A stretch of 64,000 nucleotides of DNA from Acidobacteriota bacterium. GTDB taxonomy: Bacteria; Acidobacteriota; Terriglobia; Bryobacterales; UBA6623. Under the pieces are notes generated by a model. It was not told the origin of the DNA. It made no database searches and saw only the letters and a list, made by a program, of their open reading frames with translations. Of the stretch, positions 1-52,444 are shown in pieces (position 1 is the stretch's first letter; each line of letters starts with the position of its first letter). A program made the position numbers and the translations under genes. Location: the NCBI GenBank assembly GCA_016125275.1, contig WGMB01000017.1:1-64000 (forward strand), written 5' to 3'.

Positions 1-756
<756 letters not shown>

Positions 757-784
757 TCACTCCTTCGGGCTCGCCCGAAAGCGG

Positions 785-814
785 AAAGGCCGGCTCGCCA
801 GAGCCGGCCTTTTT
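785..814 (+). terminator. Rho-independent terminator of groEL
   Basis: A perfect 12-bp stem (AAAGGCCGGCTC, loop GCCA, GAGCCGGCCTTT) runs into a T run. A smaller hairpin (TTCGGGCTCGCCCGAA) lies at about 764-779 between the stop codon and this stem. Confidence 0.92.
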
Positions 815-1182
815 GCGTGTGTGCGAGCATGTTCGGCGACTTGGCGGTGAAAGACCCCTGGACAAGAAGTCCTCGATGGCACGGCAGGCTCGGGTGGTTG
901 CAGCAGGCGTCCCGCGCCACGGCGGGCGGCTCCCCTAGAGGGCGACGACGATCTTGTCGCCAGCCTGGAGAGGGCCGAAGAACATTCGCTGCGACCGGGA
1001 CGCCTTCGAGCCGAACACCAAACGCTCGCGGAGCGCTAGTTTGAGCGGCAAGGAAGCTGTCCCCATCGGCTCGTCGGGTCGAACAGGTCTTGCTGGCGTT
1101 GCCGTTCGCGGCGTATCCCCATCGCCATGGCAAGTCTACCCCACAACACCATGGGCAGGGCTAGGTTCTTAGCCACGGGTTG
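815..1182. other. Intergenic region without a convincing gene
   Basis: This is the spacer between the groEL terminator and the 3' end of the Gabija operon. The only thing of note is a short minus-strand frame at 935-1066 (43 codons, ATG start, ending LQAGDKIVVAL). Its end vaguely resembles the tail of a secreted Acidobacteria protein, but there is no ribosome-binding site and the length is within chance. No RNA gene or repeat was recognised. This is one edge of the AT-richer island to the right. Confidence 0.5.
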
Positions 1183-2949
1183 CTAGCGTGTAGCCACTTC
1201 GAAACCCCAGTCCACCCACGCCTGTCGATGCTTGTCGAAGTGACTCTGCGGCAACGCGACCACGAGGAGGTGCCGAGCGCGCGTCATTGCCACATACGCC
1301 AGCCGTCGATCTTCAGTGTTTTCGCCACTCCGTACCGCCGCCATCACCGAGTTCCAGAATTTCGCACTGCCAATGACAAGCACGGCGTCGATGCTCTCGC
1401 CCTTCACCTGGTGAATCGTATCCTGGCGCACAGCCGGGAACGGGTCGACTGACTCGAACAGCGGCAACTCCTTCTGCTCAGGGGAAAGCCCCGTTGCTTT
1501 GATGTGGTGTCCGAGTTTTACTGCGGACTGCACGCCGATCTCATCGATCAGCTTTCCCAATTGGGCTCGCATGGACATGATCCATGCATTGCCGACACCT
1601 TGAGATACTCGGACGAGGCGGTCCGGGTCCTTGACGAACTTCCAGATTGCCAACTCCACAGCCCTGCTCTCGGGCGATTTCGGGTCGGCATCAATGCGTT
1701 CCCACAGTGGGTCGTCACCAGTGATATCGCGCACAATCCCCTCAATACTCCGGCATGCCCCACGGTAGTCATACCGATAATCACGAAGAAATGCAGCTGT
1801 CGCCAACTCCTTCGTCTTACCCTTGAGGTTGGTGTAATTCACCCTCCCCCGCAGAGATTCAAGCTGTCCGTGCGCTCGGCACACGACAGCAGCGGAGTTC
1901 ATGTCCACTCTGGCCCTATCGACGAGATCTTTCAGAGCAGCTACGCCATCGGAGTACGTCTTGGATGTCTCGCTGACAACAAAAGCCCGCCGCCATTCGT
2001 TTCCTCCACTGCCCGCCCCCGTGAAGAAGGTGTTGCCGACTACGTTGCGAACGGCAGCGGCGATATGGTTATTGCAACGGAAAGACTGACTCAGGGGCTT
2101 CTCTGGAATTGACCACTTCTCCCTGAGGTTTGGCAATGAAGTCGCATCCGCCATGCTGAATTCGTAGATGCATTGGTCCGGATCACCTACAAGCGTTATC
2201 CGTGCGCCCCTGTCTCGCAGGAGGTTCAAGAGGACAAGCAACCACGCATTCGAGTCCTGTGCTTCATCGACGATGATCTCGGGAAACCGCTTGGCGAGCA
2301 GTTCTGCGATGTGAGGTCTCTTGAATAAGAGCTGGCATGCCCAGAACACGCGCTGCGCATGTGTGTAGAAGCCCAGCGATAGGAGTTCGTGGATAGGACG
2401 ATAGGCGTCGACGAGGGGCCGACTTCCGAAAGCGTGTGAGGTCTTGAAGCAGAGCGCGCTGCCTTGCAGATAAGGAACGACTTCCCATGCCGGGATGCGG
2501 ATCTTCCGGTTGCCGTTGCCGTCCATCCACACCTGCAGATTCTTATTATTCCGATCGCCAGGGCGAGGACCTGGGAACAACCCAGGCCGTCTATTTGTCC
2601 CGACGACCAAATGGCCGAACGGGCCAAGAATGTATCGTTCGACAAAGGAGTCGAACGTACCAACGTGGTTGGGATCGGAGAGGAGGTCCCTACGCTCTAC
2701 GTCAATCGTGGCGGCCTTGAACTCGCGGATGGCAGCGTTTGTAAACGACAGGAGGGCCAATCCGCCCACAGGATAGTGCCAGTTGGCCGCTCTCCAGATG
2801 AAGCGTCGACACGACGTCCAGGTCTTTCCACTTCCTGGAGCCGCGCGCAACAGGAACTCCTGTTCCTCGGCAAAAATGGCATCTTTTTGCTGTTCTGTCG
2901 GATTCTGCGCGAGAATCAGGTCCCGGAGCTGATCAGTGGAGGTCGTCAC
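1183..2949 (-). CDS. gajB: UvrD/Rep-like helicase, Gabija subunit GajB
   Basis: A 588-residue superfamily 1A DNA helicase. In Gabija systems GajB works with GajA and is thought to be activated by DNA ends. Motifs in order: Walker A APGSGKT (37-43), motif Ia LLSFTNAA (66-73), Ib GTFDSF (97-102), Walker B IIVDEAQD (225-232), motif III GDPDQCIY (255-262), IV SFRCN (289-293), V TIHQVKGES (511-519) and VI AYVAMTRAR (551-559). All ATPase motifs are intact. The frame is open to 3012, but a GTG at 2949 preceded by GAGGAG is preferred. That start overlaps the gajA stop by 17 bp, which suggests translational coupling. It is shorter than housekeeping UvrD or PcrA (over 700 residues), which fits GajB. 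Its base composition is AT-richer than the neighbours, consistent with transfer. Confidence 0.88.
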   Translation of the reverse strand: MTTSTDQLRDLILAQNPTEQQKDAIFAEEQEFLLRAAPGSGKTWTSCRRFIWRAANWHYPVGGLALLSFTNAAIREFKAATIDVERRDLLSDPNHVGTFDSFVERYILGPFGHLVVGTNRRPGLFPGPRPGDRNNKNLQVWMDGNGNRKIRIPAWEVVPYLQGSALCFKTSHAFGSRPLVDAYRPIHELLSLGFYTHAQRVFWACQLLFKRPHIAELLAKRFPEIIVDEAQDSNAWLLVLLNLLRDRGARITLVGDPDQCIYEFSMADATSLPNLREKWSIPEKPLSQSFRCNNHIAAAVRNVVGNTFFTGAGSGGNEWRRAFVVSETSKTYSDGVAALKDLVDRARVDMNSAAVVCRAHGQLESLRGRVNYTNLKGKTKELATAAFLRDYRYDYRGACRSIEGIVRDITGDDPLWERIDADPKSPESRAVELAIWKFVKDPDRLVRVSQGVGNAWIMSMRAQLGKLIDEIGVQSAVKLGHHIKATGLSPEQKELPLFESVDPFPAVRQDTIHQVKGESIDAVLVIGSAKFWNSVMAAVRSGENTEDRRLAYVAMTRARHLLVVALPQSHFDKHRQAWVDWGFEVATR

Positions 2950-4642
2950 ACAACTCCTCGCTGATGACGCCCAGGCGCATAAGTGCCCTGCGGATGTAAG
3001 CTGGGACCGCACCCGCGCCTAGGTCGCATTCCGCCAAGATACCAGCCAGTTCCTGCGCAAACCGGCCTTTTGATACCGATTTATCCACCAATACGTCTAA
3101 GAACTTCTTAGCCTTCTCCTCTACCGTCGTGATGGCCGCGAGGTCGGTTTCGAGAGTTGCTCCAATGAAAGGATGTAGTTCCCTTAATGCAGATACCATG
3201 TGCGGCAGCAGCACTTCTGACCGAGCGAGTTCATGCTCAAACGTGATTTCCGAAGTCTCGACATACAGATTCGGAATATGGGCTGCTTGCCCTCTCAAGC
3301 TTGACGCAGCGGCGGACATCTTTCCACCTATCTCCGTCGCATCACCGTCTGTAAGAATCACGACTGGCACACCAATCCCTTCCTTTCCGAACAACGGAAT
3401 GAACGCGTTGAAGTTAATCCCGTCGGTGTTCAGAACGGTTACGGCCGACTCCTTCAGGTTGCCACCCGCAATCTTGGCCAGCACAGGGAGCAGAAGCGCC
3501 TCCGCGGTCCCCTCCACCATTAAGATGCGACGGGCGAAAAACAACTCCCCGCGAGTCGCATCGAGGTACCGCTGGAGCTTCTTCTTGCTCTTGTCGTCAA
3601 TCGCGATGGAGCAGACCGAGACGGCACTGACCTTACCATGTAACTCATGGACGGATACGACCGAATCGATCGGGGCCTGACTCGCCAGGATAGGAGAGTG
3701 GCTACTGGCGATGACCTGCACCTCGTTGCCTTCGCGATCGCCAGTGACATTCGCTAGATGCCTGAGAAGGAGCATCTGCAACTGTGGATGCAGATGCGCT
3801 TCGGGCTCCTCCACAAGGATTGAACGAAATGAGAACTGTGCGCTCCGTCGGAGTGTCCCCAAAGTCGCAGCGGTAAAGATCAAGTTGTTGTAACCCAGTC
3901 CATTGAGGGCAAACGGAAGTCCTTCAATCTCGGGCTGCAGCCCTGCGATGATACGACGGAAAGTTGGGTCGGTAAAAATAAGTTCAGTCTTCTGGGTTAG
4001 CTCAGCACCGGCAATTGATTCCATCTGCTTATTGATGTCAACCCTCGCATCTTCAACTGGCTTCAGCACTCGGATCTTCTCATTTGCATCCTTGGCAATT
4101 GTTTCAAAATCTGCGCGCTGATCTTCCATTGTCAGGCAATCGATAAGGCGCGACACCTGGGAGTTCTGGCCAGGCTGCAGGCCGCGTTCGGGATCACGCA
4201 GCGGCTGCAAGTAGATCGTCGCAGTCCGGTCGTAGTGGTTTGAAGAAAGTGAGCCGCCTTCCGTCTCGCCACCCCACATCTTCACGTTGCAACGATTCGT
4301 CGTCTCGTTGAATTCGACGCGCGCATTGACCTGCATCTCAAACCTGCCATCGCCGATATCGACGAGGCACTCTTGGAAGTGAACTTCATCCTGATCATTA
4401 AGTCCGGTGAATCTACAAGACACCTCAATCGGGGCATGCCCGGTCCCAGCGCGGAAATCATCCTCAGTAAGCCGGAGAGAGTTGAAATCCCGACTTGAAA
4501 ACAACATGAGACGCAGTGCATCTATTATCGTCGTCTTGCCCGAATTGTTCTCGCCAACCATCACCGTCAGACCACGGGGGAAGTTCACTGTGAGGGCATC
4601 GATCTTTCGGAAGTTGCGGATCTGTAGTTCACGGAGCCACAT
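2933..4642 (-). CDS. gajA: OLD-family ATPase/TOPRIM nuclease, Gabija subunit GajA
   Basis: A 569-residue protein with an ABC/SMC-like ATPase followed by a TOPRIM nuclease domain. The first residues (MWLRELQIRNFRKI) are the usual OLD/RecF-type opening. Walker A is GENNSGKT (30-37). An OLD-type LNGLGYNNLIF segment lies at about 246-256, Walker B is ILVEEPEAHLHP (275-286), and the switch histidine is in SSHSP (~315). TOPRIM acidic residues are in VEGTAE (E377), LNTDG (D407) and LTDGDA (D432, D434). In characterised Gabija, GajA is a sequence-specific nickase inhibited by NTPs and released when phage deplete nucleotides. An in-frame ATG lies 6 bp upstream at 4648, but GGAGG is better spaced for 4642. 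Size, domain order and the downstream helicase gene together support Gabija rather than a stand-alone OLD protein. Confidence 0.9.
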   Translation of the reverse strand: MWLRELQIRNFRKIDALTVNFPRGLTVMVGENNSGKTTIIDALRLMLFSSRDFNSLRLTEDDFRAGTGHAPIEVSCRFTGLNDQDEVHFQECLVDIGDGRFEMQVNARVEFNETTNRCNVKMWGGETEGGSLSSNHYDRTATIYLQPLRDPERGLQPGQNSQVSRLIDCLTMEDQRADFETIAKDANEKIRVLKPVEDARVDINKQMESIAGAELTQKTELIFTDPTFRRIIAGLQPEIEGLPFALNGLGYNNLIFTAATLGTLRRSAQFSFRSILVEEPEAHLHPQLQMLLLRHLANVTGDREGNEVQVIASSHSPILASQAPIDSVVSVHELHGKVSAVSVCSIAIDDKSKKKLQRYLDATRGELFFARRILMVEGTAEALLLPVLAKIAGGNLKESAVTVLNTDGINFNAFIPLFGKEGIGVPVVILTDGDATEIGGKMSAAASSLRGQAAHIPNLYVETSEITFEHELARSEVLLPHMVSALRELHPFIGATLETDLAAITTVEEKAKKFLDVLVDKSVSKGRFAQELAGILAECDLGAGAVPAYIRRALMRLGVISEELCDDLH

Positions 4643-4661
4643 TTGCATGACCTCCGGTTCT

Positions 4662-4691
4662 AGTGTAACGGACGAAGGGGACAGTTCCCAA
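4662..4691 (-). promoter_or_regulatory. Possible sigma-70 promoter of the gajAB operon
   Basis: On the minus strand TTGGGA (4691-4686) and TACACT (4667-4662) are separated by 18 bp and lie just upstream of the gajA ribosome-binding site GGAGG. Each hexamer matches the sigma-70 consensus at four of six positions. This is a prediction from spacing and sequence only. Confidence 0.35.
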
Positions 4692-5186
4692 CAGGCCGTC
4701 GGGACAGCCCCCGAGGTTCGCCCCGGAAAGGCCAGGCGAGGCCAAGGGTCCGCTCGGCTCCCGTTTGCCGGTCAGATTTGGAAGCCGGGAGTATCCTGGA
4801 ACGAGGTGCAACCGACCTACCCGCCGCTCCGGATGTCATGAAAAACAACGAAAAACCTGACAGAATCGGACATTCCAGCTTCGAGCCCCTATAGGCTGGG
4901 CTTGCGGCCTCCCGCGGCTTCCTGAAGTCGCCCGGGAGCCTACGGACTGGGCACACTTTCCCACGGATTCCCCTACGGTTCTCGTCGGCAGCGCCTCTTT
5001 CGCCTTCAGCTTGACTGCTGGCAATCGGCAACCGCCCGGCGCGCGCCTGCAGGTCTCCTTCACCGCGACCAGGGAAGCGAAAGCGAGCCGTAGGTCCCTC
5101 CACCGCTCCGAGCCCTCGCCCCCAAGCCGCCTCAGACGCACCTCATCAGATCGATCGCAGGCTGGTCCGGCTCGCTACTTGAGCGG
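4692..5186. other. Intergenic region upstream of gajA
   Basis: About 500 bp lie between the gajA promoter region and the stop of the thioredoxin-like gene, both on the minus strand. I see no convincing gene: the open frames here are Arg/Ser/Pro-rich and look like composition artefacts. It contains one copy of a short dispersed motif (4851-4871) that recurs at 48750-48771. Confidence 0.5.
4851..4871 (-). repeat. Dispersed intergenic motif, copy 1
   Basis: The minus strand reads GTCCGATTCTGTCAGGTTTTT. The same string with one substitution occurs on the plus strand at 48750-48770, also in a non-coding gap. Both copies run into T-rich sequence. Confidence 0.5.
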
Positions 5187-5768
5187 CTACCCCGAGTACG
5201 CCGGCTCGTTGCCGGGGCGCCACTTGATGTTGCAGCCGATCGAGGCCGTCTGCTGGTCGGAGATCGGCTTGCCCGCGATCAGGGCGTCCAGGGCGGCGCG
5301 GAGGTCCTTGCCGGTCACCGGCACATCGTTCCCCGGGCGGCTCGAATCGAACTGTCCGCGGTAGACCAGCTTCTTGTTCGCGTCGAACAGGTAGAGGTCC
5401 GGCGTGCAGGCGGCCCTGTAAGCCTTGGCGACCTCCTGGGTCTCATCCACCAAGTAGGGGAACGTGAAGCCTTGCTCGGCGACTTGCTTGCGCAGGTTCT
5501 CCGGAGCGTCCTTGGGGTGGCTGACGGGATCATTCGAGCAGATCGCCACGATGCCGACCGGCTGGTTGGCATAGTCTCGGCCCAACTGGCCCAGCGCCGC
5601 GTTGATATGTACGACGAAGGGGCAGTGGCTGCAAATGAACATCACCAGCACGCCCTTTTCGCGGGTCGCCTCGCTCAGCGAAACCGTCTTGCCGCTGGTC
5701 ACATCGGGGAGCGCGAAGTCCGGCGCGGGGGCTCCCAGCTCGAGCATGGTGGATTCTGTGAGTGCCAT
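5187..5768 (-). CDS. Thioredoxin-family (AhpC/TSA-like) redox protein
   Basis: A 193-residue soluble thioredoxin-fold protein. The redox motif is CSHCP (C46, C49) after the beta strand VLVMFI. A cis-proline-type CTPD lies at 121-124, and the end reads SIGCNIKWRPG, a tail common to one clade of AhpC/TSA-like proteins that often sits near exported or redox genes. It has no signal peptide, so it is probably cytoplasmic; it may be a peroxiredoxin or thiol reductase. The ATG at 5768 with AGAGGG just upstream is chosen, because longer readings would run into the DUF1501 gene. It follows that gene by 44 bp on the same strand and may be its third operon member. Substrate is unknown. Confidence 0.85.
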   Translation of the reverse strand: MALTESTMLELGAPAPDFALPDVTSGKTVSLSEATREKGVLVMFICSHCPFVVHINAALGQLGRDYANQPVGIVAICSNDPVSHPKDAPENLRKQVAEQGFTFPYLVDETQEVAKAYRAACTPDLYLFDANKKLVYRGQFDSSRPGNDVPVTGKDLRAALDALIAGKPISDQQTASIGCNIKWRPGNEPAYSG

Positions 5769-5812
5769 GCCCTCTAGGCTAACGGGTCCGGCCCGCTTGG
5801 TGGCGAGCCCGG

Positions 5813-7231
5813 TCAGGCCAGAATGTCGTCGATCACCCGGCCGTGGACGTCGGTCAAGCGCCGATCGATGCCGTTGTGGCGGTAGGTCAGCCGCTGGTGG
5901 TCGATGCCCAGCAGGTGCAGCACGGTGGCGTGCACGTCGTAGCCGAACGTCTCGTTCTCGGCCACCTTGTAGGACCACTCGTCGCTGGAACCGTAGCTCA
6001 CTCCGCCGCGCACGCCGCCGCCCGCCAGCCAAGAGGTAAAGGCGAACGGGTTGTGGTCGCGGCCCAGGCTGCCCTGGCTGCAGGGCATGCGGCCGAACTC
6101 GGTGGTCCAGTAGACGATCGTGTCATCCAGCAGCCCGGTTGCGGCCAGGTCCTGGATCAGCGCCGCCGCGGGCCTGTCCATTTCGCCGGCCATCTGGGCG
6201 TGGTCCTTGGCGATGTTCTCGTGGCTGTCCCAATTGCGCCGGGGAAAGCCGTTGTCCGCGCCGCTCCACACCTGCACGAAGCGCACGCCCCGCTCCAACA
6301 ACCGACGAGCCACCAGGCAGCGCGTGCCGAAGTCCTGCGTCAGCGGCTCGTCCACGCCGTAGAGCTTGCGCACGGCCGGAGATTCCGAGGCGATGTCGAG
6401 CGCCTCGGGCGCGCTGAGCTGGAGCTTTGCCGCCATCTCGTAGGACTGGATGCGCGCTTCGAGCTGGGAATCCTCGCCCCGGGCCTCCAGGTGGGCGCGA
6501 TTCATCTCCTCCAGCGCCGCGAGCGTGGCCTTTTCCGACGACGGTGTGACGAACCCGGCCCCCTGTGGCGGAAACAAATCGTGGATCGGCTGCGGCCGGC
6601 CCACGCGGATCATCGTGCCCTGGTGCTGCGCCGGCAGAAAGCCCGCCGACCAGTTGCCGGGCCCGTTCGGAGGGAAGCCGCGCAGATCCGGCAGGGCCAC
6701 GAACGTCGGCAAGTTGTCGTTCATCGAGCCCAGCCCGTAGGACAACCAGGCGCCCATGCTGGGGTAGCCCGGCAGCACGAAGCCCGTGCTTTGCAGGAAC
6801 GTCGCCGGCCCGTGGACGTTGGACTTGGACACCATCGCGTGCAGGAACGCGATGCGGTCGGCCTGCGAGCCGATGTGCGGCACGAGGTCGGAAATCATCT
6901 TGCCGCACTGCCCGTACGGCTTCCAGTCCCACGGGCTGGCCATGATCGGGCCGGGGTCGCTCTGGAACAGCTCCACCTTGCCGCCCGGATCGAACTTCTG
7001 GCCGTTGCGGCGCGCCACCTCGGGCTTGTAGTCGAAGGTGTCGACCTGGCTGGCGGCGCCCGACATGAAGAGCTGCACCACCCGCTTGGCCTTAGGTGCC
7101 GGTCCGTTCGTCGACGCCGCGTACAGGCCCTCGCGGCCCAGCATCTGCGCCAGGGCAACGCCTCCCAAACCGCCGCCCCAACTCCACAGGAGCTCGCGGC
7201 GGGAAAGACTCTGATGGATTGGTTTGCGCAT
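5813..7231 (-). CDS. DUF1501 family protein, Tat-exported
   Basis: A 472-residue member of the DUF1501 family, which lies in the alkaline-phosphatase/sulfatase-like superfamily and is abundant in Planctomycetes and Acidobacteria. The N-terminus carries a twin-arginine signal (SRRELLWSWGGGLGG). Typical family features include VVQLFMSGAASQVDTFDYKP near residue 50, GNWSAGFLPAQHQGT, RCLVARRLLERGVRFVQVW, TIVYWTTEFGRMP and GRDHNPFAFTSWLAGGG. Its start codon overlaps the stop of the preceding cytochrome/DUF1549/DUF1553 gene by one base (TGATG), so the two are translationally coupled, the usual arrangement for this pair. The reaction is not established; the pair is generally associated with breakdown of complex substrates outside the cytoplasm. 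The family call is secure, the function is not. Confidence 0.93.
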   Translation of the reverse strand: MRKPIHQSLSRRELLWSWGGGLGGVALAQMLGREGLYAASTNGPAPKAKRVVQLFMSGAASQVDTFDYKPEVARRNGQKFDPGGKVELFQSDPGPIMASPWDWKPYGQCGKMISDLVPHIGSQADRIAFLHAMVSKSNVHGPATFLQSTGFVLPGYPSMGAWLSYGLGSMNDNLPTFVALPDLRGFPPNGPGNWSAGFLPAQHQGTMIRVGRPQPIHDLFPPQGAGFVTPSSEKATLAALEEMNRAHLEARGEDSQLEARIQSYEMAAKLQLSAPEALDIASESPAVRKLYGVDEPLTQDFGTRCLVARRLLERGVRFVQVWSGADNGFPRRNWDSHENIAKDHAQMAGEMDRPAAALIQDLAATGLLDDTIVYWTTEFGRMPCSQGSLGRDHNPFAFTSWLAGGGVRGGVSYGSSDEWSYKVAENETFGYDVHATVLHLLGIDHQRLTYRHNGIDRRLTDVHGRVIDDILA

Positions 7232-9717
7232 CAGTCGACGAACAAGAACTCGTTGGAATTGAACAGCAGGCGGGCCAGGTTCTCGAGGCCCTGCTCATCC
7301 GCGAACCGTTCGAGGGTTTTCGCCTCCGCCGGCTGGGGTTCGCGAGAGAGGGTGAGCTCCACGGCGCGGCGGACCTGGGCGTCGAGCCCTTCACCCTCGG
7401 CCCGCAGGCGCTTGGCAAGATTCCGAGACTCCTCGATCAGCAACGGATCGTTGAGCATGGCCAAGGCCTGCACGGCCGTCAGCGTGACGTTGCGCTGCGG
7501 CGTGAGGATGGAGGGGTCCGGGCAATCCAGGCTTTCCATGAAGGGGTCCGGAACCGAGCGCACCAGGAAGCGATAGATGCTGCGGCGCTGCGTGGGCTGG
7601 GCGTCGATGTCGAAACGGGCGTAGTCATAGACCGGCGAATGGTCGTTGATGAAGAAGAAGTGCTCGTCCGACGGCCCGTACATGGTCAGATCGAGCCGTC
7701 CGGCGGCCTGCAGCACGCTGTCGCGCACGGATTCGGCGTCGAGCCGGCGGCGGTTTTGCCTCCACAGGAACTGGTTGCCGGCGTCGATCTTGGCAAAGTC
7801 CTGCCGCGAAGCCGACTGCTGGCGGTACGTTTGGCTCAGCAGAATGCGGCGGTGCAGGGACTTGAGCGAACCGCCGCTGTCGCGCAGCCCGGCGGCCAGC
7901 CAGTCGAGCAGCTCCGGGTGCGTCGGCTTCTCGCCCATTCGCCCGAAGTCGCTCGGGCTGCCGACCAGCCCCCGGCCAAAGTGCGTTTGCCAAATCCGGT
8001 TGGCGATCGAGCGCCAGGTCAGGGGATTGCGCTCATCCACCAGCCAGTTGGCCAGGGCCAGGCGGCGCTCGCCTTCCGGAGCGCCGTCGGGAACCTCGAA
8101 ACGGGCCGGCAGAACCTTCACGGCGGTGAGAGCTCCGGGCACGGCGGGTTCCAGCGGGCTGTCCACGTCGCCGCGCGCCAGAACGGAGACCGTTCGCGGC
8201 TCGATCGCAGGCTCAAACTTGCCGAAGCTGTCGAAGTACGAAGCGGCGGCGTAGACGGACTCCGGTTCGGGCAGAGTCTTCTGCCGCGCAATCAGCTCCT
8301 TGCGCTCTTGCTCCAGCCGCTCCAACTCGGCGCGGTCGGCCGCCGGCAGCAGGCCGCGCATGAGGCTGTTGCGCTCTTCGTCCAACTTCTTGGCCTCGGC
8401 GGCCATGCGCTCGATCTCACCATCCAGACGCTGGTTCTCGGCCTTCTGCTCGGGCGTCTCGCCGGCCGTCTTGGCGTGGAAGAGCAGCGTCCGCGCCTTG
8501 CGGATCTCCTCGGCCTCGGCGGCCAAGGCCTCCACGCCCTCGTTTGTCTGAGCGGCCAGCGCCTCCTGCAACGGACGCAGGGCCAGCTCGTTCTGAGCCA
8601 GTCGCGCCCGGACCTCCCGACGAAGCCGGAACGTCGCCGGATCGCGATCGAACGGCCGATCGGCGCGGTCCACGCCGGCAAACACGGCCTGCACGGCGTA
8701 GTAGTCCGACTGCAGGATCGGGTCGAACTTGTGGTTGTGGCAGCGCGCGCAGTGCACCGTCATGCTCGAAAACGTCGACATGACGGTCATCACCATGTCG
8801 TCCCGGTCGAGCAACCGAGCGATCCGCTTGTCGCGGGTGCCTTCGCGCAGCTCGGCGTGCCCCACGAAGTCCCAAGGCCCGGCGGCCAGAAAGCCGGTCG
8901 CGATCAACGCGTCCGGGTCGTCGGGCCGCAAGGCGTCGCCGGCGATCTGCTCGCGCACGAAGTCGCGGTAGGGCTTGTCGTCGTTGAAGGCGCGAATCAC
9001 CCAGTCGCGATAGGGCCAGGCGTTGCGGCGGGGCTTGTCCTTGTCGTAGCCGTGGGTCTCGCCGTAATGCGCCACGTCCAACCACCAGCGCGCCTGGCGT
9101 TCGCCGTAGCGCGGCGAAGCCAGCAGCCGATCCACCAGTTGCTCATAGGCCTCGGGAGATTCGTCGGCCACGAACGACCGGACCTCTTCGGGCGTCGGCT
9201 GTAGGCCGTGCAGATCATAGTAGAGGCGTCGGATCAGCGTCCGGCGGTCCGCTTCGGGCGACGCAGCCAAACCCTTCTCGGCCAGCGTGGCTTGAATGAA
9301 GGCGTCAATCGGATTGCCGCCGGCCGAGGGTGGCGCGGGCCGCTCGATCGGCCGCAGGGACCACCACGTCTGCTCGCCGCCGGCCGCTTCCCCGCCCTGG
9401 GCGCCGGCATCGATCCACGCCGCCAACAGCGCTCGCTGCTCGGCCGTCAGCGGCTCGCCGACAGGGGGCATTGCGGGCTTGTCGCCGGCCGTCTTGGCCA
9501 GCAGCAGGCTCGCCGACGCATCGCCCGGCACGATCGCAGGACCGCCCTTGCCGCCCTTCAGCAGCGACGCGCGGCTGGTGAGAGCCAAGCCGGCCTGGGG
9601 GTTGGAATCGTTGTGGCAAACCTGGCAGCGCTGCTCGAACAGCGGCAGCACGTCGGCTTCGAACGACGGGGCCGCGAACAGCGACGGAACGGCCAGGAAA
9701 GCGACGAGGAGGCGCAT
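7231..9717 (-). CDS. Cytochrome c/DUF1549/DUF1553 domain protein (PSCyt1-PSCyt2-PSD1)
   Basis: An 828-residue secreted protein. A signal peptide (MRLLVAFLAVPSLFA) is followed by a planctomycete-type cytochrome c domain with haem motif CQVCH (31-35) and the family phrase GPAIVPGDASASLL. Then come the DUF1549 region (ASPRYGERQARWWLDVAHYG), a second CARCH motif in CARCHNHKFDPI, a central Glu/Lys/Ala-rich probable coiled coil, and the DUF1553 region (FGRGLVGSPSDFGRMGEKPT; LLSQTYRQQSAS). It is the first gene of the pair with DUF1501. In these families the haem domain is thought to provide an electron route for the partner enzyme; that role is an inference. Length and domain order are standard for the family. 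Confidence 0.93.
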   Translation of the reverse strand: MRLLVAFLAVPSLFAAPSFEADVLPLFEQRCQVCHNDSNPQAGLALTSRASLLKGGKGGPAIVPGDASASLLLAKTAGDKPAMPPVGEPLTAEQRALLAAWIDAGAQGGEAAGGEQTWWSLRPIERPAPPSAGGNPIDAFIQATLAEKGLAASPEADRRTLIRRLYYDLHGLQPTPEEVRSFVADESPEAYEQLVDRLLASPRYGERQARWWLDVAHYGETHGYDKDKPRRNAWPYRDWVIRAFNDDKPYRDFVREQIAGDALRPDDPDALIATGFLAAGPWDFVGHAELREGTRDKRIARLLDRDDMVMTVMSTFSSMTVHCARCHNHKFDPILQSDYYAVQAVFAGVDRADRPFDRDPATFRLRREVRARLAQNELALRPLQEALAAQTNEGVEALAAEAEEIRKARTLLFHAKTAGETPEQKAENQRLDGEIERMAAEAKKLDEERNSLMRGLLPAADRAELERLEQERKELIARQKTLPEPESVYAAASYFDSFGKFEPAIEPRTVSVLARGDVDSPLEPAVPGALTAVKVLPARFEVPDGAPEGERRLALANWLVDERNPLTWRSIANRIWQTHFGRGLVGSPSDFGRMGEKPTHPELLDWLAAGLRDSGGSLKSLHRRILLSQTYRQQSASRQDFAKIDAGNQFLWRQNRRRLDAESVRDSVLQAAGRLDLTMYGPSDEHFFFINDHSPVYDYARFDIDAQPTQRRSIYRFLVRSVPDPFMESLDCPDPSILTPQRNVTLTAVQALAMLNDPLLIEESRNLAKRLRAEGEGLDAQVRRAVELTLSREPQPAEAKTLERFADEQGLENLARLLFNSNEFLFVD

Positions 9718-9783
9718 GGCTCCGGTCGCTCATGATATCGCAGCGAAGCCCGGCCGGCCCGAGCCCCGCGCAGGCGGCGCTCC

Positions 9784-11253
9784 CTACTTGGCGGCGCCGG
9801 CCTCCATGTCCTCCAGCCACATGGGCGGGGCGGGGACCATCGCACGATATTGTCTTTGCAGGTACTGGCCTGTCGGAGATCCCATGTGGGCCAGGAACAA
9901 CGGCCCCTCCACCGCGTTCACGCTCATCCAATAGGAGCCCCAAAAGATCAGGTCGTCGATCCAGATCACGCTGACCGAAGCCCAGCCCTTGCAAAACTGC
10001 AGGGTAAAGCGGTCTCCAAAGTCCCGGAGCAGGCCCGCCAATTGCGTCTTGTTGTAGTCGATCATGCGAGCCACATACTCTCGGTCGCCCAGGATCGCCG
10101 TGCCCCGCAAGGCTACGAACTCGTCGTCCCGGTCCCACAAAGCGATGTCGACTGCGCATCCTTTCTCGAGAGCGGTCCTCAAAGCCGGAAGATATACATC
10201 GAGTGTCGGCCAGGCCGTGATGCACACAGCCACCCGAGACGCGGGGCGTAGAATCCGATCGGTAATCTCGCCCACCGGCCAAGTCTTGAATGTCGCCAGA
10301 ATGTCGCTGTGGCGATCTCGTGAGGCCAATAGGTCCGGATCGTTTAGGGAAATCTCTCGAGAAAATTCATCGGTTTGGAGTCGGCGGAACAGCCGCATGA
10401 ACTCCTTGACCAGAACGTCATTCTCCGAGAAAAACACCGCCGTCTCATCCGCGCGGTCGCCTGGTCCCTGCCGGCCGTACCCAAAGTAAACGATGCGCCT
10501 CGTCTTTTGACTGCCTTTGGGCGGGAAATGGACGATCAGAAAGTTCATCAGAGGCGCGGTAAAGTGAAGGCGCCGAAAGGTAGCCTGTCCCGGACGGTCC
10601 CTGTACGCTTTCCACAACGCATTTGTGTGCGCTTCATCCACAATGGGCCCCGTGACGGACCGAAAGACCAACTTCGGGTTGGCCTGTAAGCTCTTGGTCA
10701 GGTCAGCCAAAGCGTCTTCGTCATAGAGGGACCGGCCCAAGATCCATCGCACGCCGGTGTCTTCGATTGCCTCCGCCGCCGGGATCATGTTCAGCAGATG
10801 CCGCAGGGCGGCGTTGTTGTCCCCTAGGTATCGAAAGTCCTGGGAGCCATCCACGGGAATCTCCCGAGGCGGGCCGGATGCAATCTCGGGCTCGTAGGCG
10901 TCTTTTCTACCCAAGGGGATGCTGATAGAGGCCTTGGTCGCCAGATGATCCCGGTAGTACTCCTCCAGAGCCCCACGCAGGCTTCCAATCTCTTGTCGGG
11001 CCCGCCCCTCGACGTCTTCGGCCCCATGGGGCTTGTCTTCCCCGTTTTCGCCCGCCCGCTCACAGTAGTACTCGAACATGATCTGTTTGCCGGTATGACG
11101 CTTGGCCTTCCACCGCCCCTCGTACTTCTTACGAACGAGGAAACGCAGAACGGCCTCCTGCTCTTCACTGAGGAAATCGGCCAACTCGTCGAGATGGGCT
11201 TGAAGGGAGGCAGGAATGTTGGAAGGTTCCGGATCAGACTTCAAGGAGGACAT
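9784..11253 (-). CDS. Uncharacterised protein, possible degenerate PLD-like fold
   Basis: About 489 residues, not recognised as a named family. The N-terminal ~130 residues are charged and helical (LSEEQEAVLRFLVRKKYEGR). Two later segments look like successive halves of a phospholipase-D-like fold. The first runs roughly 170-330 and ends in SENDVLVKEFMRLFRRLQ; the second ends in VIWIDDLIFWGSYWMSVNAV. Neither half contains an HxKxxxxD motif, so if the fold is right it is probably non-catalytic. There is no signal peptide or membrane segment. The frame continues to a TTG at 11319, but the ATG at 11253 is preferred; neither has a clear ribosome-binding site. It is a single gene, not tightly linked to neighbours, and slightly AT-richer than the flanks. 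A sensor or conflict role is speculation. Confidence 0.7.
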   Translation of the reverse strand: MSSLKSDPEPSNIPASLQAHLDELADFLSEEQEAVLRFLVRKKYEGRWKAKRHTGKQIMFEYYCERAGENGEDKPHGAEDVEGRARQEIGSLRGALEEYYRDHLATKASISIPLGRKDAYEPEIASGPPREIPVDGSQDFRYLGDNNAALRHLLNMIPAAEAIEDTGVRWILGRSLYDEDALADLTKSLQANPKLVFRSVTGPIVDEAHTNALWKAYRDRPGQATFRRLHFTAPLMNFLIVHFPPKGSQKTRRIVYFGYGRQGPGDRADETAVFFSENDVLVKEFMRLFRRLQTDEFSREISLNDPDLLASRDRHSDILATFKTWPVGEITDRILRPASRVAVCITAWPTLDVYLPALRTALEKGCAVDIALWDRDDEFVALRGTAILGDREYVARMIDYNKTQLAGLLRDFGDRFTLQFCKGWASVSVIWIDDLIFWGSYWMSVNAVEGPLFLAHMGSPTGQYLQRQYRAMVPAPPMWLEDMEAGAAK

Positions 11254-11577
11254 GGGCGCAAATCGAGTCACACACGGTGAGAGACCGTGATTGTAGTTGC
11301 GGCTTGATTTCAGGGTCAACCTACTGAATCCGGCGCCCCTTCGTCGTCTGGCCTTGGTCCCGATCTTCCTGAAAACAGGGAGCTATCGAGAAACACCCAC
11401 CTTTCGGAGGGTGCCTAGCTGGAGCGTCTCCTCCAACCTGTGACCTCTTCTGTGCACTCACGACGATGACGGTCAGTCTCTATTTTTCGACGGCCGGATG
11501 CGCTGGACTCTTGGAGTCGGGTTGTTGGAGCGCCCGTTCCCGCTCCACCGCAGATCGAATGGAGGAAAGCAGCGTCC
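11254..11577. other. Divergent intergenic region
   Basis: This is the space between the divergent genes at 9784-11253 and 11578-12300. The only structure noticed is a hairpin, CACCCACCTTTCGGAGGGTG, near 11395-11414, without a T run. No gene is supported. It should hold both promoters, but no clear -35/-10 pair stands out. Confidence 0.45.
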
Positions 11578-12300
11578 ATGAACACAGTGGTTCCCGCCCA
11601 TGCCGCCCTCTCACGGAATGCAGCGGCATCCTACCCACGCACCGCCCTTCGCGGCGGCCTCGACCTGTTACAGCGCTTGGCGCTGACAATGGTCGTAATC
11701 CTGATCATCGCCTCCTTGGCGCAGGCGCAAAACGGACAGATTCTCGAACACTACAACGCCGCGGATAGCGACCTGGCGCGCATCCCTGCCGGAGCCGTGC
11801 TGGAAGTATGCCTGGCCCAGCCCATCGCGACCCAGAGTCTAGAAAACTACGAACCGGTCATCTTCAACCTGTGTCTGAACGTTCGCCGCCGTGAATGCGA
11901 CGCGATTGCGCTTGCCGCTCGGTCGACGGACATCGAAGGCCGCCTTCGCATCATTGGCCGCGACCACGACCGCTTCATCATCCTCTTCGAGCGGATTACG
12001 CAGATTGGCAGGGCCCCCACGGACCGATTGGTCGACCCGATGGGACGCCCGTTCCGCAACCCCGTGAACCTCACGCCCAAGTCCATCACGGCTCCCGGCA
12101 AGGGGACTAAGCCGATCGTCGGAGGCGTATTCAAGCGCCGAGGCCGATGGTTGATCTTTGCGCTGCTCGATTGGATCGACGTTCGCTCCAGGCACCAGTA
12201 CCTGCTCGCTGAGACGCGGCTGACCTTGCTGGTCGAAGACGACTTCTGGGTCGTCGCGGACCCGTGCCCCCTCGAAGTCCGCGCGGAGGTGGCGGAATGA
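11578..12300 (+). CDS. Secreted or membrane-anchored protein of unknown function, partner of the caspase-like gene
   Basis: 240 residues, no family recognised. A hydrophobic stretch (LALTMVVILIIASLAQA, about 34-50) ending in an AQA-type site suggests a signal peptide or membrane anchor preceded by a long N-terminal region. The mature part has a beta-rich look, with charged segments such as IEGRLRIIGRDHDRFIILFE and four cysteines. The stop overlaps the start of the caspase-like gene (ATGA), so the two are translationally coupled and their products probably act together, for example as anchor, inhibitor or substrate; that is inference. An internal start further in (for example near the hydrophobic stretch) is possible, as the first 27 residues are unremarkable. 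Confidence 0.75.
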   Translation: MNTVVPAHAALSRNAAASYPRTALRGGLDLLQRLALTMVVILIIASLAQAQNGQILEHYNAADSDLARIPAGAVLEVCLAQPIATQSLENYEPVIFNLCLNVRRRECDAIALAARSTDIEGRLRIIGRDHDRFIILFERITQIGRAPTDRLVDPMGRPFRNPVNLTPKSITAPGKGTKPIVGGVFKRRGRWLIFALLDWIDVRSRHQYLLAETRLTLLVEDDFWVVADPCPLEVRAEVAE

Positions 12301-48877: not shown

Positions 48878-51800
48878 CTAGTCGGAGCTTTCGGGGCCCT
48901 CCGACGGAGGATCGCCTCCCGGCATCTGATCGATCAGCGCCTGGGTCCAGCGGGCCATCTCCATTCGGCCTAGGGTCACAAACCCGTCCCGGGATCGGGC
49001 GAGGATACCAACGCCCTCTTGCACACTGCCGAAGGCGCACAGCAATTGACCGACGTCCAGCCCCACCATACAGATGCCGTCGAGCCGCCCCAATTCCAGA
49101 TTGATCCGATAGGCCGTGACCAGCTTCGGAAAGGCCGCCTCATACTGCCGCCGACGCAGGTCGATCCGGGCCATGGACCACATCGTATTGGCGATGCCGT
49201 CCTTGTCCCCCAGCCCTTCGAAGATCTCCAGCCTCTCCTGGTGCAGCTCCAGGGCCGCCTCCACCTCCCCCTTGTCCCCTCGCATTTGCGCGATGTCTCC
49301 CAGCGTCACCGCCCGCTCCCGCTTGTCCCCCAGCCCTTCGAAGATCCCCAGCCTCTCCTGGTGCAGTTCCAGGGCCGCCTCCACCTCCCCCTTGTCCGCT
49401 CGGATTCGCGCGATGTCTCCCAGCGTTACCGCCCGCGACCGCTTGTCCCCCAGCCCTTCGTAAACCTTCAACTCCTCCTGGTGCAGTTCCAGGGCCGCCT
49501 CCACCTCCCCCTTCCCCGCTCGGATTCGCGCGATGTCTCCCAGCGTCACCGCCCGCGACCGCTTGTCCCCCAGCCCTTCGTAAACCTTCAACTCCTCCTG
49601 GTGCAGCTCCAGGGCCCCCTCCACCTCCCCCTTCTCCGCTCGGATTCGCGCGATGTCTCCCAGCACGATCGCTTGCTCGCGACCAGGGGGCAGGAGCGCT
49701 TGGGCCCGCTCGAGGAACGGCAGGGCCTCGTCGGGCCGTCCCCTCGCGACCAGCGCGCGGGCATGGACGATCAAGGTCGCGGCGTGACCGGCGGCGTCTC
49801 CCTGGTTCGCCGGGTCGGCCAGCATCTCCAAAGCGCGGCTCATCCATCCGTCGGCCTCGACTGTGTCGCCCACTTGCTCGCAGCGCTCCGCGGCTGTCCG
49901 CAGGAGATCGACGGACGCGGGCGCGCCGGCCTCATCCAGCAGGGCCAGGGACTGCTTGGCCCATTCGGCGGCCTGCCGGTACTCGAAGCGCCGTGCCAAG
50001 TCGCGCAGGGCGTCGGCTGTCGTCCGCGCCGCCACGTAAGCGTTCTTTCCGCAAAGAGCCAGCCGAGTCAGCTCGTTGTCCTGCGCATAGCTCCGGTCCC
50101 GGTTGCCGGCCTCGCCGCCCCAACTCTCGAACAGTGCACCCGTGACGCGCTGGGCCAACTCTCGACGCTCTTGGTCCGTCAGCTCCCCGCTCAACGGCTG
50201 AGCGAGGGCGTTCCCAGCGAGCTCGGGCTCTTGGCCCCGGCTGGGACTCTCATAGAGCTCGATCAGCCCGAGCGACGAAAGCCGCTCGATACGGCGATCC
50301 GCCGCTTCGGCGAGGCCGTCCGCGCTCAATAGCCGAACCACCGCGCGCGGTACGGGGATCTGAAACAGTTGTGTCTTGCGCAGGAGGTCCCGTTCCTCGG
50401 GAGCAAGCAGATCGAGCAGACTCTGGAGCGCCAGGCTGAGGAAGAAGTCTCGAACCTTCTGCTCGGACGGCAACGAGCCGTTGCGCAGAAAGTCGTCCAT
50501 CTGATCCAGGCAAAGTGCGCCGGCTTCCTCATCCGCCAAGCAGCGCGAGACCAGAATGTCCTGCAGACCGGGATTGCCCTGAGCCGCCGCAATGGCCCGG
50601 TACCAGAGCCCAGGAGCCGGCTCCGAAACGACGGTTCTGGGCGTGCTCAGCTCGACGCGGAGCTTGGCGAAAGCCTGTTTCTGCGCCTCATGCGAATCCA
50701 TCGCCGGCAAGGGCAAGTCGTAGAGCTGGGTCGCGAGGTCGGCGCCGCCGGAGGCGGGCAGCGTGAACAGAAAGCGGCTGGTGAACAACAGGCGCGAATC
50801 CGTGTCAGCACTGGCGAAAGCTTCGACCACGGCGCGGATGGACTCGACGTACTCGGGCGCGAGGACGTGCAGCCCAGTCTCCCGAGCCTGGAGGGCGCGC
50901 TCGAGGTCGTCGACCACCAGCAGCACCGGCCGTGAAGCGACCCGGCCGTCAGCGTCCTTCCTGACTTGCGCGCAAGGGCCTTCGAGCAGCTCGGTCAGCG
51001 CGGGCAGTAGATGGGCGGGGCGGTCCCGAACGTCATCGGCATAGCGTTCGATGATCGCCATGACCTCCGGCGTGGCGATGCGCTCGCGGAAGGCAGCGAG
51101 AATCGCCGGGGCGTCGTAGCGGTCGTAGATCACCACGGTCTCATGCGTGGGTTCGAGCCGGTGCGCCACCCTGGCGGCGACGCTCGACTTGCCCTGACGG
51201 CCCATGCCACGAATCAGCGCCCCGGCCCGGCGGACGGACCGCGAGGCCCGGAACTCCCGCAGGATGGCCTGCATGGACCGGCGGCGGCCGACGAACTCGA
51301 GCTCGCCGGCGACGGGCACTCGCTTTCCCTTGCGGTCCAGAAACGCTTTGACGCCCGCGCCTCGGTTGACGAGCTTGCGGGGGCCGGAGGCCGTCGCCAA
51401 GGCGCCGCCGCCCATGGGGTTCAGATAGAGCCGGGCCAAGTGCCAGTCGCGCGCGTTCGAGACGCCGGCGGCGTCGGGCTCCAGCTCTTGGGAGCCGGCG
51501 AGGTCGAGCCGAGCGTAGGCCAGGGCGTGCGCGAGATCCTCCCCCGCCGCCAAACGGTGGTGCAGATAAGCCGCGAAGAGAGCCGCCTCGCGGTCGCGAA
51601 CCGACGCAGCCCAGCCAAGAACCGCCGGGGCCCCGGATCGGACCAGCGAGCGGGCGAGAGAGTCCAGCTCGGGGTCGGCTTGGCCGGTTTGGCAGGCCGA
51701 CAGGAACAGCAGGCGGGGATGGTGCGCAGCCAGGCGGCGCACGAGGTCGCGGGCTTTGGTATAGGCAGGGTCGCCGACCTCATCCTCCAGCAGCAAACCG

Positions 51801-52444
51801 GGCTCGGGCTCGAGCGCGCCGTGGCAGGAGATCTGCACGACGTCCGGGCGCTCCCGGGCGACGACGGCGGCGAGCTGTTCCAACTCGCCGCTTTCTTCAA
51901 CGACCAGATCCAGACCGAGGCTGCGGGTGGCCCCCAGGATGGAGGCCTCCTCGGCTTCGTAGTCGAGGTTGTCAGCCCCTCGCGGCGCCGCCGCCATGAA
52001 GACGACGCTGAGCCGGTTGGGCGAGGGCGCCGGCGGCGATGCGGCCTTGCCGATGCGGCGCACGGGGCTGTAGGCGAGCTCGCCGAGCGCCCAGTGCCGG
52101 CCGTCTTGGGCGAGTAGCTCCCAAGGAGCGTCCAGGAAGGTCCGGGCCCGGGGATTGTCGGACCGGCCGACGGCGAACTCCACCAGGAGGGGCGGCGTGG
52201 CGACGTCGAGGATGCGGTCGAGAAACCGATCAGCCCCGTTCAGCCATGCAAACAGCTCTTGCCCCAGGGCAAGCAGGCCCGCGGCCGGTGCGACGGCGGA
52301 GGCGAGGTCGCGGTAGCGGGCCGTCCAAGCCGCGAGCTGCTCGAGGTCGGCGTCGCCGACGGGCCGGTCCTCGCGAACCTCCGCGGCGGCGCAGCGCAGT
52401 TCGAGACCGTGATGGGCGAGGGTAACGGTTGCGGCGGGCGGCAT
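48878..52444 (-). CDS. CHAT protease / STAND-like NTPase / TPR protein
   Basis: 1188 residues in three parts. Residues ~90-345 form a CHAT protease (caspase-like) with catalytic H208 in ISCHGALEP and C251 in LLFLSACQTGQAD, followed by LARSLVRSGAPAVLGWAASV, a hallmark of CHAT. Residues ~385-700 are an NTPase of STAND type: a FVGRRRSMQAIL lead-in, a P-loop GMGRQGKSS (413-421) and a Walker B VLLVVDDLE (507-515). From about 800 are TPR repeats, of which four (about 922-1081) are nearly identical 40-residue units. There is no signal peptide. Sensor TPR, NTPase switch and protease effector is the layout of prokaryotic immune or cell-death receptors; that role is inferred. AGGA lies ten bases before the ATG. 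It follows htrA by 66 bp and may share its transcript. Confidence 0.9.
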   Translation of the reverse strand: MPPAATVTLAHHGLELRCAAAEVREDRPVGDADLEQLAAWTARYRDLASAVAPAAGLLALGQELFAWLNGADRFLDRILDVATPPLLVEFAVGRSDNPRARTFLDAPWELLAQDGRHWALGELAYSPVRRIGKAASPPAPSPNRLSVVFMAAAPRGADNLDYEAEEASILGATRSLGLDLVVEESGELEQLAAVVARERPDVVQISCHGALEPEPGLLLEDEVGDPAYTKARDLVRRLAAHHPRLLFLSACQTGQADPELDSLARSLVRSGAPAVLGWAASVRDREAALFAAYLHHRLAAGEDLAHALAYARLDLAGSQELEPDAAGVSNARDWHLARLYLNPMGGGALATASGPRKLVNRGAGVKAFLDRKGKRVPVAGELEFVGRRRSMQAILREFRASRSVRRAGALIRGMGRQGKSSVAARVAHRLEPTHETVVIYDRYDAPAILAAFRERIATPEVMAIIERYADDVRDRPAHLLPALTELLEGPCAQVRKDADGRVASRPVLLVVDDLERALQARETGLHVLAPEYVESIRAVVEAFASADTDSRLLFTSRFLFTLPASGGADLATQLYDLPLPAMDSHEAQKQAFAKLRVELSTPRTVVSEPAPGLWYRAIAAAQGNPGLQDILVSRCLADEEAGALCLDQMDDFLRNGSLPSEQKVRDFFLSLALQSLLDLLAPEERDLLRKTQLFQIPVPRAVVRLLSADGLAEAADRRIERLSSLGLIELYESPSRGQEPELAGNALAQPLSGELTDQERRELAQRVTGALFESWGGEAGNRDRSYAQDNELTRLALCGKNAYVAARTTADALRDLARRFEYRQAAEWAKQSLALLDEAGAPASVDLLRTAAERCEQVGDTVEADGWMSRALEMLADPANQGDAAGHAATLIVHARALVARGRPDEALPFLERAQALLPPGREQAIVLGDIARIRAEKGEVEGALELHQEELKVYEGLGDKRSRAVTLGDIARIRAGKGEVEAALELHQEELKVYEGLGDKRSRAVTLGDIARIRADKGEVEAALELHQERLGIFEGLGDKRERAVTLGDIAQMRGDKGEVEAALELHQERLEIFEGLGDKDGIANTMWSMARIDLRRRQYEAAFPKLVTAYRINLELGRLDGICMVGLDVGQLLCAFGSVQEGVGILARSRDGFVTLGRMEMARWTQALIDQMPGGDPPSEGPESSD
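49201..49680. repeat. Four tandem 120-bp repeats encoding TPR units
   Basis: Four units of exactly 120 bp (49201, 49321, 49441, 49561) lie inside the CHAT gene. Each encodes a 40-residue unit of the type LGDIARIRAxKGEVEAALEL. They fall in two pairs: the first two read IFEGLGDK, the last two VYEGLGDK. The DNA is nearly identical between units, including at synonymous positions, which indicates recent duplication or conversion. Confidence 0.92.

Follow-up and report, generated by a model that had tools for sequence, protein, structure and literature searches.

A complete Gabija gene pair beside groEL in an Acidobacteriota genome, very likely acquired horizontally and probably once part of a type I restriction-modification operon

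The window analysed here, 64,000 nucleotides (nt) of an Acidobacteriota bacterium (GenBank assembly GCA_016125275.1, contig WGMB01000017.1, positions 1 to 64,000), starts at a contig end of a 7.55-Mb genome and harbors two overlapping minus-strand open reading frames (ORFs). They adjoin the 3′ part of groEL (34-756, plus strand; named by an earlier sequence-only reading and from our own reading of the sequence), at the place which that reading had given. The two genes very likely form a complete Gabija defence system with a class 2 OLD nuclease, which arrived horizontally as a cassette of just these two genes. Judged from its relatives, the cassette probably descends from a copy in a type I restriction-modification (R-M) operon, where it stood between hsdS and hsdR, and has since lost this setting. 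The pair itself is one more, ordinary Gabija system; the history of the slot and the mosaic of the two genes are additions that were absent from the sequence-only reading. The genes and their junctions are:

2933-4642, minus strand: gajA, OLD-type ABC ATPase plus TOPRIM nuclease of 569 amino acids (aa), class 2 OLD (PADLOC, Pfam; start from comparison of relatives)
1183-2949, minus strand: gajB, UvrD-like superfamily 1 helicase of 588 aa, GTG start (PADLOC, Pfam; start from comparison)
2933-2949, minus strand: overlap of the gajA end and the gajB start, 17 nt (in relatives, a 14-nt overlap with ATG)
4651-4655, minus strand: GGAGG Shine-Dalgarno sequence of gajA, 8 nt before the ATG at 4642 (GGAGG here in 7 of 9 distinct relatives)

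The most likely start of gajA is the ATG at 4642-4640, because it is kept in all relatives compared; the ATG at 4648 is disfavoured, since around that position several relatives carry a stop codon or one that is not a start. For gajB, the ORF 1183-3012 was rejected, its start being too early as judged by the gajB start of the relatives. The ATG used by these relatives reads ACG in the window and the start was therefore moved to the in-frame GTG directly upstream (2949-2947). The 17-nt overlap suggests that the two genes are translationally coupled.

The upstream protein matches the GajA family (PADLOC, 9e-151) and the downstream protein the GajB family (5.3e-87), so that the complete, adjacent, same-strand pair proposed from the sequence alone stands, with both starts corrected. 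Pfam identifies AAA_15 and OLD-like_TOPRIM in GajA, corresponding to an N-terminal OLD/ABC ATPase and a C-terminal TOPRIM domain, and UvrD-helicase and UvrD_C in GajB. The domain architecture of GajA, a complete TOPRIM active site and the adjacent, overlapping helicase gene are those of Gabija; a class 1 (single-gene) OLD was ruled out, as gajB adjoins and overlaps gajA. None of the listed NCBIfam families, including the RecF, RecN, UvrD, PcrA and Rep equivalogs, reaches its curated cut-off for either protein, and GajB scores 90.9 bits against the uvrD equivalog, where the cut-off is 1144. Hidden Markov model searches thus place the proteins in the GajA and GajB families, without reaching any housekeeping UvrD equivalog cut-off.

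The catalytic motifs, which had been called intact, are indeed conserved. In an alignment of 11 GajA homologues, the TOPRIM residues E377, E381, G408, D432, D434, T467, E469 and K525 are invariant in all, as are the ABC lysine K36, GEN.GKTT (one position of which varies), EEPEAHLH and the histidine of SSH. E377 and D432/D434 align to solved GajA, whose active-site residues are E379, D432, D434 and G409 (PMC10781630; papers are cited here by PMC number from excerpts). The active site of the Burkholderia pseudomallei OLD comprises E400, E404, D455, D457, T506, E508 and a lysine (PMC6755086). The spacing of E381 and the DxD pair in the window GajA equals that of this protein, and the T-x-E pair lies 16 residues closer to E. 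Because of this departure in spacing, T467/E469 and K525 are assigned by motif only; for K525 the motif is KGRFAQ, shared with the Xanthomonas chain in a match without significance of its own. In GajB, the core residues of PGSGKT, DEAQD, GDPDQCI, HQ.KGES and RRLAYVAMTRAR, which we take to be the helicase motifs, are invariant in 9 of 9 sequences, with few variable positions between them. Neither gene contains an internal stop and both frames are full length. Compared with each of nine relatives, gajA has a ratio of nonsynonymous to synonymous substitution rates (dN/dS, Nei-Gojobori) of 0.095-0.137 and gajB one of 0.131-0.179, pointing to purifying selection over the divergence from these relatives; the ratio averages this whole divergence, and a very recent loss of function would not show in it. 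This conservation suggests, but does not prove, that the window pair is functional at the present day.

Horizontal acquisition, as proposed in the sequence-only reading, agrees with the distribution of the pair. A close GajA copy occurs in 1 of 60 relatives (G017, same family, 84% identity), and the next best matches among them have 32% identity (G012, 2e-40; G022, 8e-34). Some GajA match at an expectation value (E) ≤0.001 is found in 57 of 61 genomes, the own genome included, nearly all of these matches being short and in the ATPase part. A sample of the phylum (n = 396, including the own genome) gave three matches at E ≤1e-60, namely the own copy and copies at 76 and 65%. In the class of the L003 genome (n = 369 sampled) only the L003 genome itself matched at E ≤1e-100; in the phylum and class searches, at most three candidates (GajA) or two (HsdM) were scored per genome. 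Phage records (n = 50,697) contained six matches, all below 60% identity and one covering at least 80% of the query. Scanning a species-level genome collection yielded nine loci, of which seven are full-length copies at 79-87% GajA identity. The corresponding bins are labelled Gammaproteobacteria (L003, L006), Candidatus Azophilus (L004, Pseudomonadota), Silicimonas (L009, Pseudomonadota), Bryobacterales (L005, Acidobacteriota), Saccharibacteria (L007) and Gemmatimonadetes (L008). By their bin names, many of the relatives may come from sponge symbionts, which is not counted as evidence here. The L005 copy has the same sequence as that of G017, which belongs to the window's own family, so that the window genome, too, is probably acidobacterial; a viral collection supplied one further copy (L012, 79%). 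L010 and L011 were excluded (33 and 46% identity over ~45 residues). Loci of one genome (L005/L013/L051; L047/L049; L048/L050) or of one contig (L012/L058) were merged before counting; L048/L050, whose contig ends ~0.24 kb past gajA, was left out of the count of embedded and solo copies, and the tree and dN/dS sets consist of ten copies, without L048.

Transfer is shown more directly by the extent of the homology, because DNA identity to loci in bins of other phyla is confined to the pair. In the first 12 kb of the window, blastn finds 77-79% identity to eight loci (L003-L009, L012) only between 1189-1202 and 4655-4667; the shared unit consists of the two genes plus a leader of at most ~20 nt. 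Six of these eight loci are located in bins labelled with three phyla other than that of the window. Base composition had been read as unlike the surroundings, and this is the case: the cassette has a GC of 0.558, compared with 0.675 over the 5 kb past gajA and 0.668 over the 1.2 kb towards groEL, and GC at third codon positions (GC3) is 0.63 in gajA and 0.67 in gajB vs. 0.87-0.93 in four neighbouring genes (groEL, the thioredoxin-like gene and two more). The two 1.5-kb bins with the lowest GC among 42 listed lie within the cassette. Low GC alone is not unique to the cassette, because the window has other such stretches, for example an ORF of 511 aa at 9784-11319 (GC 0.59, GC3 0.72) without a Pfam or PADLOC match at 0.001.

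These data also bear on the alternative that the genes encode a housekeeping OLD nuclease and a UvrD/PcrA repair helicase, kept by descent rather than acquired for defence. A role in repair or replication was once suggested for class 2 OLD proteins (PMC6755086), and a similarity of GajB to UvrD and PcrA is detectable. This alternative is nevertheless very improbable: the uvrD score of GajB falls far below the cut-off (90.9 vs. 1144 bits), a close copy is missing in 59 of the 60 relatives, the GC3 of the pair departs from that of its neighbours, and the pairs of the close relatives stand among restriction genes.

In six of the eight close loci (L003, L004, L005, L006, L007, L009), hsdS is located directly upstream of gajA, with a gap of ~30 nt (50 nt in L004). 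Upstream of it, hsdM is present in five of these six embedded loci, the L004 contig beginning inside hsdS. Downstream, hsdR is seen in five of the six: directly after gajB in L004, L006, L007 and L009, and behind an intervening GmrSD-type gene in L003. In L005, gajB is followed by a 5′ piece of hsdR and then by a GmrSD-type gene, and the contig ends before any full hsdR. The hsdR of L004 may be broken or misassembled, because it is split in two frames. Pfam confirms HsdM, HsdS, HsdR, GmrSD, Mrr and a YgjP-like protease among the proteins that were sampled. A 5′ hsdR piece between gajB and the GmrSD gene occurs in both L003 (11465-11542) and L005 (11473-11774), and that of L003 duplicates the start of the full hsdR downstream, as if copied by insertion. 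The site before hsdM varies, carrying GmrSD (L003, L005, L007), Mrr (L006) or AIPR/AbiU-like genes (L009). At 1e-5, the window contains no match to hsdM, the hsdS tail, hsdR or the YgjP gene, and its copy is not embedded in such an operon.

Solo copies of the close clade retain traces of this setting. The 160 nt upstream of gajA were aligned locally to the embedded loci and the scores compared with those of 500 mononucleotide shuffles. Sequence of the hsdS tail is found in all three other solo copies that have flank sequence: L008 (score 72, 85 nt), L012 (53, 68 nt) and L049 (86, 115 nt), with 0 of 500 shuffles as good for each. Downstream of gajB, L008 has 152 nt that align to the hsdR start (score 166, 0/500) and, after a deletion, a second hsdR piece, whereas L012 and L049 have no significant hsdR match (273 and 396 of 500 shuffles as good). 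Because these hsdS scars are kept, L008, L012 and L049 were embedded first and became solo later. The window itself contributes one feature:

4644-4665, minus strand: leader of 22 nt matching the hsdS-gajA junction of the R-M embedded relatives (score 36, 1/500 shuffles), at the limit of upstream homology

Based on the scars of its relatives and on its place in the tree, the window copy is probably an escapee from an R-M operon. The solo pairs have diverse neighbours: SIR2 and HerA defence-type genes stand beside the pair of L012 (1711-4798; a putatively viral contig of the viral collection), an AAA (kinase-like) domain fused to an adenylosuccinate-synthetase-like domain is encoded upstream in L008 (3955-5586), and an N6_N4_Mtase methylase with type III-like restriction genes (ResIII, RE_endonuc) upstream in L049 (2553-8075).

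Several observations weigh against this account in one or another of its parts. The R-M trace of the window comprises 22 nt only and includes the ribosome-binding site, so that it may be kept for function. Downstream of gajB no hsdR remnant is detected (233/500 shuffles as good), and the L003 HsdM, which matched seven of eight other records (one being its own source), has no match in the window genome at E ≤0.001, other HsdM kinds not having been sought. Among six distant plasmid Gabija pairs (GajA 34-39% identity), picked from the top of a list of 161 records and not at random, none has hsd genes annotated within 7 kb. The cross-phylum picture is built on metagenome bins, which possibly include misplaced contigs. 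The own promoter that had been thought plausible was not recovered: the scan of 700-5400 gave one sigma-70-like site, inside gajA, where 1.4 are expected by chance, and none upstream of gajA. AlphaFold models from 9-row alignments had a mean pLDDT (predicted local distance difference test) of 44.6 for GajA and 43.7 for GajB and were discarded. Finally, a Gabija homologue tested in Streptococcus thermophilus gave only little or modest protection (PMC11514479).

Part of these points would fit a solo pair that is ancestral and entered the type I R-M slot in one lineage, so that the window copy was never in an R-M operon. The lack of annotated hsd genes around the distant plasmid pairs and the short R-M trace of the window agree with this order of events, as do the grouping of the window GajB with L012, itself a solo copy, and a gajA whose first 1200 nt do not fix the place of the window. 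We regard it as rather unlikely given the hsdS tails in L008, L012 and L049 and the broken hsdR in L008. Others would fit a decaying, non-functional relic of a defence island: a promoter-like site was not found upstream, the conserved gajB ATG is now ACG with a GTG just upstream, and the R-M genes of the relatives' kind are gone from the window. Such decay is quite improbable in view of full-length frames without stops, intact catalytic residues and a dN/dS of 0.095-0.18 against each of the nine relatives.

The two genes of the window have, by their trees, different nearest relatives, and either copy may be the recombinant. In trees of the complete gajA, the window falls among the embedded copies (support 99.9/100 for DNA, 97.1/99 for protein), and a grouping with L012 is rejected weakly (approximately unbiased (AU) test, p 0.025 for DNA and 0.046 for protein). 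This signal comes from the last third of the gene; over the first 1200 nt, the window is placed beside L012 without support (66.8/48). In the GajB tree, the window groups with the solo copy L012 (100/100) and a grouping with the embedded copies is rejected (AU p 2e-88 for DNA, 0.0014 for protein). The identity profile along the pair switches near the gajA/gajB border. Exchange inside gajA is possible too, because the last 169 GajA residues diverge far more between lineages (dN 0.14-0.36) than the rest (0.06-0.09).

The slot between hsdS and hsdR is variable in related operons. The six considered are best HsdM matches, four of the eight matches from one search and two of the 25 records from another. 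The slot is empty, hsdS and hsdR overlapping, in L124 (HsdM 77%) and L125 (HsdM 70%). In L123, with an HsdM 88% identical to that of L003, a Drt1a/DRT1 reverse transcriptase follows hsdS (70-1860; PADLOC 1.4e-173), and the contig ends before hsdR is seen. Two cyanobacterial plasmids (HsdM 70 and 69%) carry toxin-antitoxin-type genes between hsdS and hsdR, one of them with a transposase inside hsdS; the stretch fetched for L126 (HsdM 60%) is too short to show the slot content. Tentatively, the composite operon may move between phyla and shed solo Gabija copies with reshuffled gajA and gajB, the slot being a possible place where entire defence systems are swapped (empty, toxin-antitoxin, DRT1, GmrSD, Gabija).

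Comparable arrangements are known for other cargo. PrrC is embedded in the EcoprrI type I operon (PMC3874165), and DarTG2 is located between hsdS and hsdR in the Escherichia coli RRDM island, at a site called a potential recombination hotspot (PMC12255303). Both are settings of the kind in which the close relatives of the window pair are found. They differ in what is embedded, an anticodon nuclease or a toxin-antitoxin pair as against Gabija in the relatives, and the window copy stands outside such an operon. TOPRIM-linked OLD-ABC modules of the Gabija and PARIS kinds are described as backup effectors in or beside BREX loci (PMC12839542), resembling the setting of the relatives, although the host operon is the modification-based BREX and not type I R-M. 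In listings and excerpts of the mostly open-access literature searched, no paper was found stating that Gabija lies inside a type I operon.

The flanks of the cassette, described as non-coding, lack a likely gene on both sides and, at 426 and ~540 bp, are somewhat longer than the ~370 and ~500 bp given in the sequence-only reading. On the gajA side, 4643-5186 contains no likely gene. The remaining features are:

757-1182, no strand: groEL-side flank from the groEL end to the gajB stop, 426 bp, no likely gene
5020-5093, minus strand: partial copy (74 nt) of a repeat dispersed in this genome, upstream flank

An inverted repeat at 769-828 in the groEL-side flank is not listed by the terminator scan and is presumably the groEL terminator. 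A search of 700-5300 for mobile elements or att-like repeats at the borders gave only short, mostly distant pairs and this probable terminator, and no Rfam family reaches its gathering score in 1-12000. The dispersed repeat is ~400 bp long, and at other places the genome contains three longer copies (82% to the copy used as query) and two further, weak copies; one copy lies beside a SIR2-like gene (L097). The fragment at 5020-5093 is not read as an insertion site, because no counterpart was found in the other flank. The thioredoxin-like gene loci of 24 relatives (up to ~1.5 kb on each side where the contig allowed) contain no groEL, and 23 groEL loci from 16 relatives together with the second groEL copy of the own genome contain no thioredoxin-like gene. 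As groEL and the thioredoxin-like gene are not neighbours in relatives, no insertion point is shown and the comparison with empty sites is uninformative. Elsewhere in the window, 48881-52444 encodes a CHAT-domain protein with AAA and TPR repeats, whose 120-bp tandem repeats (49202-49664) reach 94% similarity, which suggests that TPR units were duplicated recently.

The solved Gabija is that of Bacillus cereus VD045 (PDB 8j4t, 8sm3, 8u7i and others). It shares with the window the same gajA-gajB pair, an OLD ABC ATPase plus TOPRIM protein with a UvrD-like partner, and E and DxD align (8j4t, 8sm3, 8u7i). The window pair is distant from it, scoring 43 bits for GajA and 32 bits for GajB in phmmer. 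Ahead of the aligned core, the window GajB is longer by ~65-70 residues (residue 192 of 588 aa vs. chain position 122-128 in solved GajB), and this extra N-terminal stretch includes a part aligning to PcrA; solved GajB is without the N-terminal adenine-binding elements (PMC10681800). The best matching solved TOPRIM domains are those of the class 2 OLD proteins of Xanthomonas campestris and B. pseudomallei (6njv, 6nk8; 76 and 72 bits), structures of C-terminal regions only. Class 2 OLD genes occur in tandem with a helicase, often in an overlapping frame, and their role was speculated to be repair and not defence (PMC6755086).

In the Gabija systems studied, GajA cuts DNA, GajB binds GajA in a 4:4 complex and senses DNA ends, and nucleotide hydrolysis and depletion lead to abortive infection (PMC10781630, PMC10681800, PMC11514479). 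By analogy, the window pair most likely works in the same way. GajA and GajB would assemble into one complex, in which the ABC domain of GajA would restrain the TOPRIM nuclease as long as nucleotides are abundant. The helicase-like GajB would sense DNA ends and hydrolyse nucleotides, and the loss of nucleotides during phage replication would free GajA to nick and cut DNA, aborting the infection. The studied systems were reportedly also described by Cheng in 2021 and 2023. GajB, alone or bound to GajA, did not unwind DNA (PMC10681800), and the helicase label of GajB should therefore be read with care.

The pair belongs to a branch of Gabija that is distant from the solved one; seven full-length copies of this branch, from bins with differing labels, are 79-87% alike in GajA. 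The route of transfer may matter more, as it offers a tangible example, open to testing, of a defence system that carries a second one. Gabija is named among the systems activated by the anti-restriction protein Ocr (PMC12255303, introduction). If so, Gabija inside a restriction operon could act as a natural fail-safe, a hypothesis for the relatives rather than for the window copy. The embedded loci are a natural setting for asking if Gabija serves as a backup once restriction is inhibited by phages.

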